Part shown: one piece after another, positions 17,335-32,947 of the stretch
Numbering within the stretch: the first letter of the stretch is position 1
How the letters are laid out: every line of letters starts with the position of its first letter
Assembly (NCBI RefSeq): GCF_024346995.1
Contig: NZ_AP024888.1
Coordinates: 434,001 to 498,000, forward strand
DNA: 64,000 bases
Direction: 5' to 3'
From: Vibrio palustris
GTDB lineage: Bacteria > Pseudomonadota > Gammaproteobacteria > Enterobacterales > Vibrionaceae
The notes under the pieces: model-generated
The model's input: only the letters and a program-made list of their open reading frames with translations
What the model was told of the DNA's origin: nothing
Databases searched by the model: none
Translations under genes and position numbers: made by a program

Positions 17335-18405
17335 ATGAATAACCGTCATGTAACCTCAAAATTTTGCCGTAATATCTTACTTGTTGGCTTGGCGAGTGCC
17401 GGCTTAACCGCTTGTAATCAGCCGCCTGAAATTCAAAAGATCGAAGGTTTTGCGCAAGGGACTAGCTACCATATTAGCTACTGGACATCGAAAGATGTTG
17501 ATAAAGAAACCATAGAAAAACAGTTTCAAACAAAACTGGATAGTATCGACAAAGAACTCTCCACTTATCGCGATGATTCATATATTTCGCGTTTTAACGA
17601 GAAAACGGATACGAACTGGCAGCCAGCGTCGAAAGATTTTATTCACTTAATTGACCTCGCGCGAGTGATCAATCGAGATACGCAAGGATGTTACGATCCA
17701 ACTGTGTCGCCGCTATTTCAGTTGTGGGGATTTCAAAAAGGCACGCTAGAAGTGCCAACCGCAGCGCAAATCAGTAAAGTGAAAAAGCAAATGGGCTTGG
17801 ATAAAATCCAAGTCGATCATACTGGCATGCGTGTGCGTAAAGTATTACCGCATGTGCAGCTTGATTTTTCATCGATGGGTGAAGGCTACACCATTAATAA
17901 ACTCAGTAAGATTTTGGAGTCAGATGGCATCCATAACTATTTAGTTGAGTTCGGTGGTGATATGAAGATTCGTGGTCATAAACCCAAAGGTCAAAAATGG
18001 CGTGTGGCGATTGAACGTCCGATTCCATTAGAAGACGGTGTTAAACCGTATAAAATCGTGACAATTAATGACGAGAAAGGGGTGACTCTGAACACGTCTG
18101 GCACATACCATCATTCGTTTGATAAAGATGGTAAAGAGTACGCGCATATTTTAGATCCACGCACCGGCACGCCAGTGACGCACGATCTGTCTTCGGCAAC
18201 CGTCTTCAGCGATGATCCAGAAATTGGAGATGCTTGGGCAACCGCAATGCTATGCTTAGGACCAAAAGTAGGTAAAGCCGTGGCATTACGTAAGAACTTA
18301 GAAGTGTTCTTTATTCGCGGTACCGACAAGGATGCGAAAAGCTTTTCAAGTGAAGCGTTGTCTAAATCTCAGCGTATAAGCTTTGATCAAGGTGAAGCAA
18401 AATAA
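17335..18405 (+). CDS. apbE: FAD:protein FMN transferase ApbE (lipoprotein)
   Basis: Attaches FMN covalently to Thr/Ser of flavoproteins such as NqrB/NqrC and RnfG/RnfD on the periplasmic side. The 356 residues start with a lipoprotein signal (NILLVGLASAGLTAC). Family landmarks follow: FAQGTSYHISYW, the Asp-rich region with STYRDDSYISRFN, DFSSMGEGYTINKL (compare the E. coli ApbE GEGY motif), VEFGGDMKIRG, and the FAD/Mg-binding YAHILDPRTG and DAWATAM. I chose ATG 17335, which directly precedes the signal peptide; the frame is open upstream to a TTG at 17218 but that would bury the signal. It is not next to an nqr or rnf operon here, so it could be a second copy. Confidence 0.9.
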   Translation: MNNRHVTSKFCRNILLVGLASAGLTACNQPPEIQKIEGFAQGTSYHISYWTSKDVDKETIEKQFQTKLDSIDKELSTYRDDSYISRFNEKTDTNWQPASKDFIHLIDLARVINRDTQGCYDPTVSPLFQLWGFQKGTLEVPTAAQISKVKKQMGLDKIQVDHTGMRVRKVLPHVQLDFSSMGEGYTINKLSKILESDGIHNYLVEFGGDMKIRGHKPKGQKWRVAIERPIPLEDGVKPYKIVTINDEKGVTLNTSGTYHHSFDKDGKEYAHILDPRTGTPVTHDLSSATVFSDDPEIGDAWATAMLCLGPKVGKAVALRKNLEVFFIRGTDKDAKSFSSEALSKSQRISFDQGEAK

Positions 18406-25691: not shown

Positions 25692-26270
25692 TAGGGTGTT
25701 GGCGAAAAGCGACTTAGTGTTATAACGCATCTATTACGCTCCCGAACACCCAGAGCACACACATTACTGATATGCGTCAACGGCTAGATTGCATTAATTC
25801 ACATGCTAACTTTGATCGACCTCAATAACCGGCTAATTTTCCGTAAGTTAGCGACGTTTTATTGAAAATACCGTAGGAGTATCATCAAGGATTTGGTATA
25901 AATATAAATGAAGTTGCTTATTGAGCTGAGGTGAGTCATCGACAGTAAAGCGAGCATTGGCCACGTATACGCATCTCGCTGCGAAGGTGATTGATAAAAG
26001 GGAGTATTTTGGCTGGTGGCTGGTAAGAAACTCTTTTATTATCAAAAAATAAGAATCGACAGTGTAGAAATAATGCGCTGTCGATAAATGACATAACGCG
26101 CCTGCTCATTTTTCCAATTTTGATTTTTGTAGATATAAGTAAAAATATATTATTATTCATAAGTTTAAAAGAGTTTTTGAGTGAATTTAAAAATGTGTAA
26201 ACGCGCATGCGCACTATTAAAATGTTAGCCTCTTGTGTGAGCCAAGATATATTAATCGAATGGAATAGTT
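25692..26270. other. AT-rich 579-bp gap at left edge of the defence region
   Basis: I see no supported gene. Minus-strand frames at 25848-26045 and 25936-26214 lack ribosome sites and family resemblance. An 8-bp inverted repeat (ATCGACAG, 26055-26062, and its complement 26078-26085) with a 15-base loop is present. Composition shifts to more AT from about 26100. This probably contains the junction of the accessory block; no clear attI, attC or tRNA end is visible. Confidence 0.45.
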
Positions 26271-27803
26271 ATGAAGTTTAAGGTTCTACCTGCTGGAAAC
26301 AGCTGTCCAATTGATAAGCCAAACTATGCTTATTTAGTGACAGATAACTGGGATGACTGGTTTGAATTTTCAACGATGTATACGTTGATTTATGTAGATG
26401 GCGATCTAAATAAAAATAGAATTGGCTCGATTAAAATCGGCCAATTTGATATGGAGAAAGATCAAAGAAGGCCCAAAATACCTAATAGCTTCAGTGAATT
26501 AGGCGATGACTTTTTCTCGGTCGGTCAAGATGATAGTTTTTACGACGAATTAAACAAGCTAGGCGAAGAAACAAGGTCTCAAATACTTTCCGCCCTCAAT
26601 GACATAGCTTTAGACGAAAACCTCTATGAGAAAGCAATTAAAGAGCGAGTTACAGGTACATCATTACTAAGGTCAGTAAGTCATACTTCAATCAAAGGAC
26701 AATATAGAAGGCTTGCTAAAGGAGGCGTTCGATTATCTGAATACTCTTTCTTATATGAATCACCGAAAATGAAAGGCACTGAAGGTAGAAGGCTCAACTT
26801 GGCTTTTGAGGTGACGCCAGAGAGCAATCCCCCAACAAATATACATGTCCTTATCGGTCGAAATGGTGTTGGGAAAACCCATTTGATTAATAACATGATC
26901 AGCTCTCTTATTGATGAAGAATCCCCCACTTCTAAAGTGGGTGAATTTTCATCTCCAGATGAGTTTGAAGGGGAGCTTTTTTCTAATGTTGTATCAGTTA
27001 CGTTTAGTGCATTTGATGAAACTGAGCCATTACCGGAGAAAAAGGATAAATCATCTGGAATTCAATTTTCCTATGTTGGCCTTAAAAGAGTAAAAAAAGG
27101 AAGCGAGAAAAACCTTCCCCCGAAAAGCCCAGTGATTCTTAAAAATGAATTTGTGAAAAGTATTTTGGCCTGCAAGGCAGGAAGCAAAATAGAACGTTGG
27201 AAAAGAGCAATAGAAAAGCTAGAGACTGACCCAGTCTTTGGCGATATTAACGTAGCATCTATTCTGAATAATGACGATGAAGATGATTTTAAAGATATTG
27301 CGGGAAGGTTATTCAAGAACCTGAGCTCTGGTCACAAAATTGTACTTCTTACTATAACAAGGCTTGTAGAAACAATCGAAGAAAGAAGTTTAGTTTTTTT
27401 GGACGAGCCAGAGGCTCATCTCCACCCACCTCTTTTATCTGCTTTTATTCGCTCTCTTTCAGATCTTTTAATAAATAGAAATGCAGTTTCAATAATAGCA
27501 ACTCATTCACCCGTGGTTCTTCAGGAGGTACCTAGAAGTTGTACATGGAAGCTTTGGAGAAGCGGTCATCTATCAAAAGTTGAAAGGCTTGAGACTGAAT
27601 CATTTGGAGAAAATGTAGGAATATTGACCAGAGAGGTTTTTGGATTAGAGCATACAGATTCTGGATTCCACAATTTACTAAACGATGCTGTTGATAAGTT
27701 TGACAGCTATGAGGCTGCAATAAATAGCTTTGATAGCCAATTGGGGTTGGAAGCAAAAGGTATCTTGCGTGCTTTATATGGTGTGAAGAGAACTAAGGCA
27801 TGA
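26271..27803 (+). CDS. ptuA: Septu-like defence ATPase (PtuA-type AAA protein)
   Basis: Probable sensor/ATPase subunit of a Septu-type anti-phage system. The 510 residues have an N-terminal region of about 190 residues without a clear family, then an ABC/SMC-like ATPase core: Walker A GRNGVGKT (196-203), signature LSSGHK (351-356), Walker B LVFLDEPE (374-381) and H-loop THSP (411-414). No nuclease domain is evident. The gene overlaps the next by ATGA at 27800-27803. The ATPase plus HNH pair is the Septu layout (PtuA-PtuB); known PtuA-PtuB proteins assemble into a complex in which PtuB cuts DNA. No reverse transcriptase precedes it, so it is not a retron. AT-rich compared with flanking genes by eye. 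Confidence 0.75.
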   Translation: MKFKVLPAGNSCPIDKPNYAYLVTDNWDDWFEFSTMYTLIYVDGDLNKNRIGSIKIGQFDMEKDQRRPKIPNSFSELGDDFFSVGQDDSFYDELNKLGEETRSQILSALNDIALDENLYEKAIKERVTGTSLLRSVSHTSIKGQYRRLAKGGVRLSEYSFLYESPKMKGTEGRRLNLAFEVTPESNPPTNIHVLIGRNGVGKTHLINNMISSLIDEESPTSKVGEFSSPDEFEGELFSNVVSVTFSAFDETEPLPEKKDKSSGIQFSYVGLKRVKKGSEKNLPPKSPVILKNEFVKSILACKAGSKIERWKRAIEKLETDPVFGDINVASILNNDDEDDFKDIAGRLFKNLSSGHKIVLLTITRLVETIEERSLVFLDEPEAHLHPPLLSAFIRSLSDLLINRNAVSIIATHSPVVLQEVPRSCTWKLWRSGHLSKVERLETESFGENVGILTREVFGLEHTDSGFHNLLNDAVDKFDSYEAAINSFDSQLGLEAKGILRALYGVKRTKA

Positions 27804-28639
27804 AAAAATTAACCCGACCAAATGATGACGCAGTAGTTGTCTTTGAGGCATGTATCGACCGTGTTCGAAATGCAGATCTCAAGCACCGATTACAATCTTG
27901 CTCAGTAGAAGTTGGTGAAGCATCAGCTGAATTTGACCAGAAAGCCTCTGTGGCAGAGTTACATACCATTGAGGCCAAAGAAAGTGTAGCGAATGTAGTT
28001 TCAGTTGATGAGATGAAAAAGGTCTACACAGATCGAATGGCTAAAAAATTAGCCCCAGGTAGAGTTTACTATGATAAATTAATGTCACTGCCCGAGCATG
28101 GAAGGTGTCCTCTATGTTCTCAACGAGTTGTGTCTACATTAGATCATCATTTACCTAAAGCTCATTATCCGTCTTTAGCTGTATCTCCATTAAATCTTAT
28201 TCCTGCTTGTCAGGATTGCAATAAAATCAAAAGTGAAGATATACCGCTAAATTCAGAGAAAGAAACACTACACCCATACTACGATGATGTGGAAGGTTTT
28301 TTATGGGTTAAAGCAAAATTAACAGAATCAGTCCCTGTTGTTGTGGAATTTTATGTCGAACCTCCTGATGATTGTGATGATGTATTAATAGAAAGACTCA
28401 AGCACCATTTTATCACTTTTGATTTAGCCGCCCTTTATTCTTCACATGCAGCCGAAGAGCTTGCAAATATAGAATTTATAGCAAGAAAAATATTCGAAGA
28501 TAGCGGTAGTATTGAATTAAGGGAGTATTTAAGTGATATGGCAGACAGTAGAAAACAGGTGAGCATAAATTCATGGCAGGCGGCTTTTTATACTTGTTTG
28601 TATGAAAGTAACTGGTTTTGCCAAAACAGATTTCAATAA
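27800..28639 (+). CDS. ptuB: Septu-like HNH nuclease (PtuB-type)
   Basis: Probable effector nuclease of the two-gene system. The 279 residues contain an HNH/McrA-like domain with zinc ligands CPLC (103-106) and CQDC (137-140), the catalytic DHH (115-117) and LNLIPACQDCNKIKS. The downstream LHPYYDD is, as I recall, common in Septu and retron-linked HNH proteins. It begins inside the ptuA stop (ATGA overlap), so the two subunits are made together. The N-terminal 95 residues and the C-terminal 130 have no family I recognise. The stop lies five bases before an attC-like palindrome. Confidence 0.75.
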   Translation: MKKLTRPNDDAVVVFEACIDRVRNADLKHRLQSCSVEVGEASAEFDQKASVAELHTIEAKESVANVVSVDEMKKVYTDRMAKKLAPGRVYYDKLMSLPEHGRCPLCSQRVVSTLDHHLPKAHYPSLAVSPLNLIPACQDCNKIKSEDIPLNSEKETLHPYYDDVEGFLWVKAKLTESVPVVVEFYVEPPDDCDDVLIERLKHHFITFDLAALYSSHAAEELANIEFIARKIFEDSGSIELREYLSDMADSRKQVSINSWQAAFYTCLYESNWFCQNRFQ

Positions 28640-28643
28640 AAAA

Positions 28644-28714
28644 GGCTAACAAGTTGCAGCACGCGGATAAATTACTCGCTGCGCTCCTAATTTACCGGTG
28701 AGCAAAGCGTTATG
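28644..28714 (+). repeat. attC-like palindromic site 1 (after the Septu pair)
   Basis: Begins with CTAAC and ends with GCGTTATG, like the R'' and R' core boxes of integron attC sites. Inside, TTGC/GCAA and CGG-A-TAAATTA (28663-28672) against TAATTTACCG (about 28688-28697) form an imperfect hairpin with an unpaired A, the type of bulge that orients attC folding. Length about 70 bp. It shares 55 bp at about 87% identity with site 2 at 32574. Confidence 0.7.
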
Positions 28715-28763
28715 TTTTTTTGGAATATCAGGAAGTCTGTTTCACTCGTTTTAAGGAAAAAGA

Positions 28764-30764
28764 ATGAAAATAAAAAGCGCCCGTATAAAAAACTACAGGC
28801 TTTTAAAAGATGTCTATCTAACTCTTGCTGACAGGACAACCCTCATTGTTGGGCGCAACAATGCGGGTAAGACTTCTTTTGCTGAAATATTTCGAAGTTT
28901 TCTAAGTCAGTCTGGAGCTAAAATTTGTTACGAAGATTTTAACCAGTCTTGTTTAGCCGGCTTTGAGGTGGCTTTAAATGCCTTTATGAACAACCACACA
29001 GATGAGGAAATTCGCCACCTAATACCAACGATTGAGTTGGAACTTCGAATCGACTATAAGGATGATGAGGACGATTTCGGAGCTTTAGGTGATTTCATAA
29101 TTGATCTTGACGATACATTATTCGAAACCTGTATATTAGTTTCCTATCAGTTGAAAGACGGAAAAGTTAAAGAATTTTTTCATAATTTGAATATAGAAAA
29201 TCGTAAAAAATACTTTTCAGATTTACGAAGCCTTATCAACCAGCATTTCGAACCAGCGATATATGCGATTGAACCGACTAATGCAGACAATAAAGTCAGA
29301 CTTGAGTTTTCAGCATTTAAGCGCTTGATATTGTCTGGTCTTATAAATGCTCAACGCGGCCTTGATGATGAAACACATAGTGAACGAGATGTTCTTGGTA
29401 AATCATTGGGAAACATATTTAAAAGTGCAAACAGTATTAGTGCGCCTGAGGAATTTAAAGCTAAGTCAGAAGAAATCAATAAAGTTGTAGAAGAACTGCA
29501 AGAAAAAGTCGATACCGATTTTCAGGAGAAAGTAAAATCGCTTTTGCCAACGCTGAATATATTTGGGTATCCCGGCCTGAAAGATCCAAACTTAAATGCT
29601 GCTACAGAGTTGAATGTAAAATCACTTCTGGAGAGCAACACCAGAGTGTTTTACGAAGGCGATGATCACTTTACTCTGCCTGAAACCTACAATGGTTTAG
29701 GTATCCGAAATTTGATTTTCATTCTCTTTCGGATTTATGAATACTTCAGAGAGTTTCAGTCGCAGTCCACTCCGCCGAAAGGACATTTGATTTTCATTGA
29801 AGAACCCGAAGCCCATCTACACCCGCAAATGCAGGAAGTATTTATACGGCAGCTTGAGGAAATAGTCGGAGAGTTTCAAAAACAACTTAATGACGGAAAA
29901 TTGTGGCCAGTTCAGTTTGTGGTCAGCACGCATTCTTCCCATATTGCCAATGAGGTAGATTTTAGCAAAGTGCGTTACTTTTTATCCAAGAGTGGAAAAG
30001 AGACTAAGGTCAAAGATCTAGGAGAAGCGTTTGGCAGCTATGAGGTTAAAGCGGACAAGGAGTTCTTGCAGAAGTATTTAACGCTGACTAAATGTGACCT
30101 ATATTTCGCGGATAGAGCAATTCTTATCGAAGGCGCGACTGAAAGAATTCTCCTGCCAGAGATGATCAAAAAAGTGGATGATACAAAACAGCGCGGTTTA
30201 CGCAGAAAGTATATGTCTGTGGTCGAGGTAGGCGGCGCATATGCTCATCATTTTTATAAATTCATTGATTTCCTTGAGCTTAAGACTCTGTTCATTACTG
30301 ATTTGGATTCCGTAAAGAAGACCAAGGGTAAGAAGAATACAACATACCCAGCTTCCTGTGTGAGTGAAGGTACACATTCAAGTAATGCAGGCCTCTCCAA
30401 TTGGTTTGGTATGGAAGGATACGCAAGTTTGGGTGATATTTACGCCAAAGCAGAAAAGTCCAAAGTTTCAGGATGCCGTAGAGTGGCATTTCAGGTCAAC
30501 GAGGATGAAAAAGCTATATGCGGGCGTAGTTTTGAAGATGCATTTATTTTGGCAAATACAAATCTGTTTGAATTACATGGTTTGGGAGGTGTAGAGCTAG
30601 AATATTCCGTTTTTGAAAGAGCTAAGAAAATTGGAAATGAAAGCAAGGCCAATTTTGCCATTGAGTATTCTATGGAAAAAACAGATTGGGCCGTGCCTAA
30701 ATACATTTGTGAAGGGTTGGAATGGCTGGATAGCGATGATGCAGTCAAGGCTGAGGAGGTTTAG
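28764..30764 (+). CDS. gajA: Gabija GajA, OLD-family ATPase/nuclease
   Basis: Nuclease subunit of a Gabija anti-phage system. N-terminal ABC-like ATPase: Walker A GRNNAGKT (30-37), Walker B HLIFIEEPEAH (341-351) and H-loop STHSSH (388-393), with a long helical insertion between. The C-terminal TOPRIM nuclease has the glutamate in LIEGATE (Glu456) and the DLDS motif (513-516). At 666 residues it is longer than the founding Bacillus GajA (about 580). ATG 28764 has AAGGAAAAAG upstream. Two bases separate its stop from gajB, a UvrD-like helicase, which is the diagnostic Gabija pair. It lies immediately after attC-like site 1. Confidence 0.88.
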   Translation: MKIKSARIKNYRLLKDVYLTLADRTTLIVGRNNAGKTSFAEIFRSFLSQSGAKICYEDFNQSCLAGFEVALNAFMNNHTDEEIRHLIPTIELELRIDYKDDEDDFGALGDFIIDLDDTLFETCILVSYQLKDGKVKEFFHNLNIENRKKYFSDLRSLINQHFEPAIYAIEPTNADNKVRLEFSAFKRLILSGLINAQRGLDDETHSERDVLGKSLGNIFKSANSISAPEEFKAKSEEINKVVEELQEKVDTDFQEKVKSLLPTLNIFGYPGLKDPNLNAATELNVKSLLESNTRVFYEGDDHFTLPETYNGLGIRNLIFILFRIYEYFREFQSQSTPPKGHLIFIEEPEAHLHPQMQEVFIRQLEEIVGEFQKQLNDGKLWPVQFVVSTHSSHIANEVDFSKVRYFLSKSGKETKVKDLGEAFGSYEVKADKEFLQKYLTLTKCDLYFADRAILIEGATERILLPEMIKKVDDTKQRGLRRKYMSVVEVGGAYAHHFYKFIDFLELKTLFITDLDSVKKTKGKKNTTYPASCVSEGTHSSNAGLSNWFGMEGYASLGDIYAKAEKSKVSGCRRVAFQVNEDEKAICGRSFEDAFILANTNLFELHGLGGVELEYSVFERAKKIGNESKANFAIEYSMEKTDWAVPKYICEGLEWLDSDDAVKAEEV

Positions 30765-30766
30765 CA

Positions 30767-32533
30767 ATGACAAAGATAAGCCCAGCAGAGCAGGCATCTA
30801 TCGAGGCGTTGGAGCAGCTCAGAAGCTGTATCAATAAACACCAGTGCTTCCGTTTGGAAGCTGGTGCAGGTGCAGGTAAAACCTATTCTTTGATTGAGTC
30901 GATTAGGTATCTGATATCCAGTCGTGCAGACGAATTTTTAGGTAATCGGCAGCGAATTGCTTGTATTACATACACAAACGTTGCAAAGAATGAAATAAAG
31001 GATAGAACGGATCATCACCCTGTTATTTTCGCAGATACAATTCACGCATTCTGCTGGAATATACTGCAACACTATCAGGTAAAGCTCCGAGAACACCTTT
31101 CTGATCTTGGTAAAAAATGGCAACAGCGAATTGATGAGTCAGGAGGCATTAATGACCAAAGGGTCAAGTATGATTTAGGGTTTCCGATGATTAATGAGCG
31201 AGAGATTAGCTTGCACCATGACGATGTAATTACATTGATGGCTTGTATGCTTGCCTACCCCAAATTTCAGAAGCTACTAAAAAGTAAATTCCCAATAGTG
31301 TTCATTGATGAATATCAGGATACCAATATTAAGCTTGCGGAAAGTATTGTCACCAATCTAATAAATAATGATTCAGGTGTAGTTATCGGTTTATTCGGTG
31401 ATCACTGGCAAAAAATCTATGGCTCCTCGGCTTGTGGTTTGATCTCTAGTGACAAAGGAAAAATAGTAGAAATCGGAAAGAGAGCAAACTTTCGATCAGA
31501 CAAAAATATAGTCAGATGTTTAAACAGAATGAGGCCAGACCTTCCGCAAGCTGAATCAGACCCAGACTCTGAAGGAGTGATAAAACTTTTCCATTCTAAT
31601 GATTGGGTGGGGATAAGACGAGATGGGAAAGGTGGTGGACACTGGAAGGACGATCTTCCAGAAGAGAATGTAAGAGAACATATAGAGAAAACGAAAGAAT
31701 TAATGTGTAGAGACGGATGGGATTTATCTCCTGACAAAACGAAAATTCTGTTCTTAACAAACAACCTTATTGCTAGTGAGCAGAGCTTTAAAAATCTTTC
31801 AAATTGTTTTCGCTATACAGATGACTATCTCAAAAAGAATGATAAATATATCCAGTTTTTCCTTGAGGTGATAGAGCCCACTGCACTTGCATACGAGCAA
31901 CAGCAATATGGTGAACTGTTACAAGTCAAAAAGAAAAACCAACCACAGTTGAAATGCCAAGCTGATAAAACAGAGTGGATGAATAATTTAGGGAAAGTAA
32001 TGCACGCAAGAGCCAATTCTACTATTGGCGATATGCTGGATATTTTGATGGAAACTAAGATGCCTAGACTTTCGTCTAAAATCGAAGAGGCAGAAGAACG
32101 ATATAAGCAGCTTATATCAAAGCCTAATGAAGAGCTGGAAGAGGATGAATCAAAATTTATTAATAAGTTAAATAAGTTACGCTCAGTAAAGTATTCAGAG
32201 GTCGTGAGTCTGAGTGATTATATCGATGAAAAGACACCATTTTCAACGCAGCACGGGGTGAAAGGAGCGGAGTTTGACAATGTACTTGTTGTTTGTGGTC
32301 GTGGCTGGAATCAATATAACTGGAACCAGATGTTAGAGTGGATGGATGAAAGCTATCCCAAAGATAAGCAAGACACATTCGAACGAAACCGCAACTTGTT
32401 TTACGTCAGCTGTTCGCGAGGCAAGCACAATCTATCTCTGCTGTTTACGCAGGAGCTGTCTGAAAAATCAATTGCGGAACTAGAGCGAATATTTGGTCAA
32501 GACAACGTGTTGGGTAATCCGTTTGGGGTTTAG
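30767..32533 (+). CDS. gajB: Gabija GajB, UvrD/Rep-type helicase
   Basis: Superfamily 1 helicase-like partner of GajA, thought to sense nucleic-acid ends and trigger the nuclease. The 588 residues carry Walker A GAGAGKT (33-39), CITYTNVAKNEI, Walker B DEYQDT (181-186), a motif III/IV region with IGLFGDHWQKIYG, and FSTQHGVKGAEFDNVLVV with the final FYVSCSRGKHNL. It is somewhat longer than the founding GajB (about 500). Its start is coupled to gajA (GAGG in the gajA end). Confidence 0.88.
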   Translation: MTKISPAEQASIEALEQLRSCINKHQCFRLEAGAGAGKTYSLIESIRYLISSRADEFLGNRQRIACITYTNVAKNEIKDRTDHHPVIFADTIHAFCWNILQHYQVKLREHLSDLGKKWQQRIDESGGINDQRVKYDLGFPMINEREISLHHDDVITLMACMLAYPKFQKLLKSKFPIVFIDEYQDTNIKLAESIVTNLINNDSGVVIGLFGDHWQKIYGSSACGLISSDKGKIVEIGKRANFRSDKNIVRCLNRMRPDLPQAESDPDSEGVIKLFHSNDWVGIRRDGKGGGHWKDDLPEENVREHIEKTKELMCRDGWDLSPDKTKILFLTNNLIASEQSFKNLSNCFRYTDDYLKKNDKYIQFFLEVIEPTALAYEQQQYGELLQVKKKNQPQLKCQADKTEWMNNLGKVMHARANSTIGDMLDILMETKMPRLSSKIEEAEERYKQLISKPNEELEEDESKFINKLNKLRSVKYSEVVSLSDYIDEKTPFSTQHGVKGAEFDNVLVVCGRGWNQYNWNQMLEWMDESYPKDKQDTFERNRNLFYVSCSRGKHNLSLLFTQELSEKSIAELERIFGQDNVLGNPFGV

Positions 32534-32947
32534 GCTCTCCTTGGGTTTCCTCGGTTCTATTGATTTAGACAAAACATAACATATTGCTGCACGCGGATAA
32601 ATTACTCGCTACGTTCCCAATTTTCCGGTGAGAAATAAACAAGGCACCCATACTATAAATAAGCCATGTTCTACGTGTCATTCTAGCATTTTATAGTGAT
32701 GTAATATTTGCATCGGTTAGTCTTTCTTAGTTTTAAACGATGAGTTGATGATTTTTATCGAAATTTACGTTACGCAAGTCTAGTAAAGTTCGACTAATAT
32801 TGTTTAGATAGCAAAAGCTTAACTAGTGAGTGGAGTGGCTAAGCCAATAGCTGTTGTGTTTTTGCTCCTTTTCGGCCCGCTTCGGTCTACACTTTGTGGT
32901 CGAATATGTTATCGGACTTTATAAACCTAGTTAAATGCGATATATAA
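32534..32947. other. Gap between gajB and the GNAT gene, holding attC-like site 2
   Basis: No gene seen. attC-like site 2 lies at 32574-32640. A further stretch (32850-32920) has a weak inverted TTCG...CGAA element and a short run similar to part of Vibrio cholerae repeats (GTTGTGTTT), too weak to call. Confidence 0.45.
32574..32640 (+). repeat. attC-like palindromic site 2 (after the Gabija pair)
   Basis: Close copy of site 1: from AACA (32578) to CCGGTGAG (32632) about 48 of 55 positions agree, including an identical stretch of over 20 bases across the left arm. The right end differs: AAATAAAC replaces the CAAAGCGTTATG core, so the recombination core looks lost or replaced. It lies 41 bases beyond the gajB stop. 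Confidence 0.65.

Follow-up and report, generated by a model that had tools for sequence, protein, structure and literature searches.

The window analysed here, a stretch of 64,000 nucleotides from Vibrio palustris (C2:434001-498000), belongs to a genome of two contigs, 2.65 and 1.08 Mb in length, with a completeness of 100. It contains two pairs of genes that lie head to tail on the forward strand (Table 1), with nrdDG, the anaerobic ribonucleotide reductase gene and its radical-SAM partner, as left neighbours and a GNAT gene and a BCCT transporter gene as right neighbours (all assigned with Pfam). The second pair is a Gabija system, in which GajA, with its ATPase and TOPRIM domains, adjoins the UvrD-like GajB. 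In the first pair, the ATPase gene scores 697 bits with the PADLOC profile PDC-M01A against 633.7 bits with the PtuA profile, and the best 25 of the 49 PADLOC matches of the HNH partner are all to PDC-M01B. Since PDC-M01A and PDC-M01B come first, with PtuA only second for the ATPase, 'Septu-type' is the safe name for this pair. Full-length profile matches thus bear out an earlier note on this DNA, which had described two complete two-gene systems in tandem; its name Gabija stands, while what it had called Septu is Septu-type rather than proven Septu. Both systems are predicted, on the strength of their sequences, to act in defence.

Table 1. Features of the locus and further copies of the attI core (window positions unless marked C1 or C2, the two chromosomes).
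Feature	Position	Strand	Remarks
Repeated module: intI-like remnant, spacer, attI	25877..26227	+	relatives elsewhere in genome
Remnant like intI start (pseudogene)	25960..26001	-	41 bp at 80% to intI start at L019:2991-3031
attI core	26200..26227	+	crossover between G 26224 and T 26225
Gene cassette 1	26225..28709	+	2485 bp; starts TTAGCC
PtuA-like AAA ATPase	26271..27803	+	PADLOC best PDC-M01A, PtuA second
HNH endonuclease partner	27800..28639	+	PADLOC PDC-M01B
Putative attC1, intact	28644..28715	+	R'' 28644-28650, R' 28709-28715
Gene cassette 2	28710..32633	+	about 3.9 kb; 3' end of attC lost
GajA	28764..30764	+	PADLOC PDLC00063, 901.7 bits; AAA_15 and OLD-like TOPRIM domains
GajB	30767..32533	+	PADLOC PDLC00113, 843.9 bits; UvrD domains
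Putative attC2, truncated	32574..32633	+	R'', L'', loop and L' kept; R' missing
Insertion-sequence family end remnant	32634..32727	+	motif ACAAGRCACCCATACTAT
Further attI copies, C2	172931, 177624, 287629, 294533, 387908, 666373-, 668493-, 675250-, 679205-, 884035-		
Further attI copies, C1	925247, 937120, 1705712-		

attC sites and cassette borders

Each pair of genes is followed by a palindrome, and the two palindromes agree at 51 of 59 positions in an ungapped comparison (28647-28705 against 32577-32635), whereas the next-best 59-mer of the window, on either strand, reaches 31 matches of 59, which confirms the kinship first noticed from the letters alone. That both systems end in such a palindrome holds fully for the first, which is intact, and partly for the second, which is truncated: the similarity stops at 32635 and there is no GTT. 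The bottom strand of attC1 folds into an R box, a spacer, an L box with extrahelical bases and a loop, with both R''/R' and L''/L' pairing, while attC2 lacks the R''/R' pairing. As a proof of attC identity the fold z-score fails, neither site being lower in energy than chance when compared with shuffled sequences (z-scores of -0.80 for attC1 and -0.31 for attC2), and the case for attC therefore rests on covariation, borders and homology.

Covariation was assessed in an alignment of 25 sequences, comprising both window sites and 23 attC relatives, with seven of 30 relatives left out as duplicate, truncated or badly aligned. Two-sided changes occur in 10 of 24 pairs, compared with 4.6 in shuffles, and 85.6% of the cells are paired, compared with 80.7% in shuffles that do not keep the relatedness of the sequences (0 of 500 reach the observed value); when the register is slid, the paired share falls to 34-41%. 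The identification of the palindromes with attC is also supported by homology: over 65 bp, attC1 shares 89% identity with the site that follows estX in a class 1 integron. A query with cassette 1 finds 636 plasmid records, of which 629 match at 80-90% identity, and the 13 matches listed in this band all fall on the attC1 stretch. The Klebsiella plasmid NZ_CP027162.1 shows the order intI1, estX, attC1-like site, HAD hydrolase, aadA2 and cmlA1; in a Vibrio alginolyticus plasmid the attC1 stretch lies between unannotated DNA and a hypothetical gene, with no integron annotated around it. Judging from these comparisons of sequence, we take the first palindrome to be an attC site and the second to be an attC whose R' end was lost where the insertion-sequence end begins.

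Ordinary dispersed repeats, such as terminators or REP-like sequences that happened to trail both operons, could likewise be 86% alike and give weak fold z-scores. However, in place of the wide scatter expected of such repeats, the genome holds only four clear copies by similarity (the two window sites, C2:236497 and C1:942017), attC1 resembles the attC behind estX, a related unit in another genome (G137, below) is cut at G|TT, and the starts of the cassettes are complementary to sequence within the same cassettes, so that this explanation is extremely improbable. In the genus, 23 of the 227 genomes, counting the present one, hold relatives of the attC sites at an E-value of 1e-4.

The borders of the two units can be placed to the base at their starts. 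Cassette 1 starts G|TTAGCC (26224|26225), complementary to its own R'' GGCTAAC at 28644, and cassette 2 starts G|TTATGTTTT (28709|28710), complementary to AAAACATAAC at 32571-32580, which leads into attC2. In both cassettes the start is thus the reverse complement of the cassette's own R'', which characterises cassettes inserted in circular form. The unit sizes, first given as 2.4 and 4 kb, are hereby refined to 2485 bp and about 3.9 kb, and the proposed structure of gene plus attC, typical of integron cassettes, is supported by the identity of attC1, the G|TT borders and homologous cassettes elsewhere.

The homologous cassettes concern the Gabija unit. In G137, another species of the same genus, a unit 91% identical to it (L345:6322-10186; G137:C1:1512321-1516185) corresponds to window positions 28709-32579, that is, from the crossover G to the inside of R'', with flanks that differ from those of the window. 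It lies on chromosome 1 and adjoins an inorganic-pyrophosphatase-like gene, as read from translations. On its left side (..AACTG|TTATG) neither attC nor attI is recognised, so that the G137 unit looks like a natural insertion at a non-integron, attG-type site; as a candidate of this kind it is best read in this way. In Billgrantia desiderata, gajAB (GajA 82%) lies between an attC 90% identical to attC1 and an attC-like site of its own, which is followed by a GNAT-like gene, a site, an open reading frame and a further site; this makes four attC-like sites in all, those other than the attC1-like one being based on a noisy palindrome scanner and the fold of one site. No intI was found in the 18 kb around them with the IntI probe.

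At a threshold of 1e-150, GajA occurs in three of the 227 genomes of the genus, the present one included, and the relative in G047 (71%) has no borders of the cassette-2 kind; an attC1-like site is found in one of 80 GajA relatives, the stretch behind gajB being readable by eye in eight of the first 10 alone. PtuA relatives occur at 1e-60 in 10 of 227 genomes, again including the present one, and of the nine others one, that of G130 (46%), is followed within 1.5 kb by a convincing attC, which is of VCR type; the two nearest (73%) have none within that distance. No unit equal to cassette 1 was found elsewhere, and the plasmid collection gave no match to the Gabija unit, the attI module described below or the right flank. 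Among 227 species, the best match over the nrdG region is 76% and no relative shows the window site empty; around nrdDG in the five nearest relatives, none of the nine other window proteins tested was found. Comparison of species at the GTT, a check of the kind that the earlier note had proposed, favours separate cassettes for cassette 2, cut at G|TT in G137 and Billgrantia, and yields neither an empty site nor an equal Septu-type unit.

An attI site, its copies and the missing integrase

Directly ahead of cassette 1 lies the motif AACGCGCATGCGCACTATTAAAATG|TTA, and the array therefore reads attI, cassette, cassette. Close relatives of this motif in G047 and G150 are found some 275 bp upstream of an intact full-length intI, in divergent orientation (open over 319 aa in G150, over the family cut-off in G047). 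The window motif thus qualifies as attI, a site beside and divergent from intI with crossover at GTT, by homology to these two genomes, the window itself holding an intI-like remnant only. This remnant is short and weak (14 residues at 79% to the IntI probe), and from position alone it may extend to about 25877. The module that contains it is 92% identical over 126 bp, and 79% over 234 bp, to C2:666373-666813. The earlier note was right that no integrase gene lies in the window, and had missed both the attI core and the intI-like start remnant.

The finding of attI bears on whether the window cassettes could instead have been inserted ectopically, at a non-integron site of the attG type. Insertion at such genomic sites has been described (accessible part of PMC12901181), and the G137 Gabija unit has no recognised attC or attI beside its start; the window cassette, however, directly follows an attI copy, which makes ectopic insertion here very unlikely.

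A search of the genome for intI yields fragments only. Of seven integrase-family matches none is over the cut-off: two are intI fragments on C1 (C1:936352 and C1:924902), two split pairs with frames of 305 and 319 aa are read as XerC/XerD-type recombinases, and the seventh is a weak fragment. Among 61 genomes searched, 35 have an integrase over the cut-off. Chromosome 1 carries a cassette array with a truncated intI at about 925-947 kb (delineated from open reading frames and the sites of the noisy scanner), and a complete integron, with intact intI, is found nowhere in the genome. The window array is therefore probably immobile today, and the suggestion that whole defence systems are moving as cassettes holds in the past tense, as no intact IntI was found and attC2 is without R'.

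The 24-base attI core is repeated. Allowing up to two mismatches, there are 14 near-identical copies in the genome, three on C1 and 11 on C2, with no occurrence of the reversed core as a control; a short partial motif at C1:938546 was left out of the 14-copy counts of self-complementarity and insertion-sequence ends given here. The thirteen further copies lie on loci L019, L147 and L198-L203, and the DNA behind each differs. All 14 are alike over about 150-490 bp upstream, share the sequence up to GTTA (GTTG once) and diverge thereafter. The next nine bases find a matching R'' (at least eight matches within 4 kb) in nine of 14 copies, or eight of the thirteen outside the window, compared with 12 of 182 mismatched pairings; the remaining five have no R'' match of eight or more. 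Elsewhere the core occurs five times in G047, five in G074, twice in G061 and once each in eight genomes, being absent from 215 of 227. Ten of 19 distinct attI sites in these other genomes pass the same comparison within 1.4 kb, the mismatched control covering only the 14 of the present genome; the share is five of five in G047 and one of five in G074.

Four G047 copies (L331, L333, L334 and L335) are dispersed and share a module of 384 bp whose left end, TGCCCCAAA, is fixed in all four; they show no matching right end and no trace of intI within 1.2 kb. The fifth, beside the intact intI, has only about 149 bp in common with them. It thus seems that attI, with some upstream DNA, was multiplied more than once in the genus. 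That attI is itself mobile in the genus, as a module of about 150-490 bp that stops at the crossover and has spread over both chromosomes, is a proposition for which we consider the chances evenly balanced. If true, about 14 docking sites would exist here and five in G047, all of the latter open to service in trans by a single intact IntI, and whole defence modules would be gained at many dispersed, possibly promoter-proximal sites rather than in one array. Standard tools would then miss single-cassette units: the default CALIN threshold of IntegronFinder is two attC (accessible part of PMC12444791), so that units with a single attC would go unlisted.

Defence accounts for part, not all, of the cargo of such units, as three of 10 proteins submitted to PADLOC (nine from attI units, one from a solo attC locus) match defence families, either established or candidate: a kinase, a DUF2971 protein of PDC-S31 and the SNF2/restriction-like protein of the solo attC locus. 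At this last locus (L021:6696-8573; C2:234695-236572), an intact attC of the same type as the window sites lies behind a 600 aa SNF2/restriction-like gene, and the 19 kb of the locus contain no attI core (up to two mismatches). Two further observations concern L019. In the chromosome 1 array, two near-identical kinase-like cassettes with VCR-type attC sites (L019:8450-9081 and 17384-18015) are separated by about 9 kb. The attC of the first cassette behind C1:925247 has R'' AAACCTAAC, then other sequence, and a transposase gene (L019:3970-5061), which we take to be of the IS110 type, starts just past the point where this attC should continue.

Insertion-sequence ends and the history of the array

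The right border of the array, at 32634, coincides with the remnant of an insertion-sequence family end that is 81-84% identical over 82-98 bp to two other places and 70% identical over 125 bp to the end of a 1.28 kb element at L201:455-1736. This element and a second one at L201:4145-5424 are 97.6% identical, have the ends TTAACAAGACACCC and lie among attI-cassette units; their protein matches models of REP-associated tyrosine transposases and Y1 transposases below the cut-offs. Two sets of ends were counted in the genome. Of the 14 attI copies, five have one of the 38 ends with up to three mismatches within 600 bp upstream, and 10 have one within 7 kb downstream (0.17 and 1.24 for random positions); for the 13 ends with up to one mismatch the numbers are three and six (0.08 and 0.51). 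The association is partly built in because the motif was found by looking at these flanks. One of the 38 ends lies inside the HNH gene, probably by chance. By eye, two more right junctions fall inside attC-like sequence (C2:673706 and C2:677395). The family of the 1.28 kb element may thus insert in or near attC sites and carry attI-cassette blocks along, and since its ends border several units, transposition of whole units would be the likeliest means of spread in this genome. No such ends occur within 1.5 kb of the G047 attI copies, and another route of spread therefore exists there.

These ends raise the possibility that the array was assembled elsewhere and that the attI module and both cassettes arrived as one block by transposition, composite or one-ended. 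The end at the right border, the enrichment of ends near attI copies over random positions and the presence of two near-identical elements with a transposase-like gene all point in this direction; against it, no such end (up to four mismatches) is present at the left border of the window unit, the association is in part built in and one end is probably fortuitous. We regard arrival as a block as quite possible, if somewhat short of probable. This reading bears on how the two units reached the site and leaves their nature as cassettes untouched.

From the attI, the borders and the attC sites observed, with homologous Gabija cassettes elsewhere and no intact intI detected, it follows that the stretch 25877-32727 is very probably a decayed mini-integron, made of an intI-start remnant, attI and, in tandem, cassettes of 2.5 and about 3.9 kb that each hold a complete anti-phage system of two genes. 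The circular cassettes would have been inserted at attI by an integron integrase that the locus no longer has and that may have worked in trans from a different integron of the same genome. As new cassettes enter at attI, the Gabija cassette would have entered first and the Septu-type cassette second, and both are probably transcribed from the attI side. Later, an insertion sequence would have joined the array inside attC2 and removed its R' end. Copies of the attI-bearing module have come to lie at about 14 places over the two chromosomes, the majority with a recognisable cassette behind them.

The locus points to cassettes as a means by which large defence modules may travel: the Gabija borders, exact to the base in two species of the genus, together with a canonical array in a member of another family, indicate that a two-gene defence system of 3.9 kb travels as an integron cassette. 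Newness in kind is modest, and the surprising part is the multiplied attI, a site normally thought to occur once per integron that can evidently multiply through a genome with cassettes at many of its copies. No description of multiple, orphan, secondary or duplicated attI was found in the titles and abstracts of a collection that lacks most subscription papers, which is weak evidence of absence; nor did titles and abstracts on integrons with Gabija and Septu describe the two-cassette case. Two questions become testable, namely whether one IntI loads distant attI copies and whether dispersed cassettes in first position give expressed, selectable immunity.

Comparison with known integrons

Sedentary chromosomal integrons are known to carry anti-phage cassettes (Darracq 2025 and Getz 2025, as cited in the accessible part of PMC12409362; the work of Darracq 2025 is also mentioned in that of PMC13064858). 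The former source states, citing Darracq 2025, that defence systems found in integrons are streamlined and small, larger ones with more than two genes being absent; cassette 2 is larger than the streamlined cargo described so far. As far as these accessible parts go, the window resembles sedentary chromosomal integrons in having defence genes in cassettes with attC, in the manner of Vibrio-type integrons, and differs from them in holding two successive systems of two genes each (2.5 and about 3.9 kb), in the lack of an intact intI and in the position of attI away from the main array. With CALIN elements it shares cassettes without an intact intI nearby, but unlike them it has an attI. Its attC1 is like the estX attC of class 1 integrons (the 89% over 65 bp given above), whereas the cargo differs and the plasmid integron carries intI1.

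Integron mobilization units and MITE-bounded integrons are integron pieces bordered by transposable-element ends. The use of such ends as borders is common to them and to the locus described here; compared with both, intact intI is lacking here, the ends belong to a REP-transposase-like family, and many chromosomal units of this kind are present in one genome.
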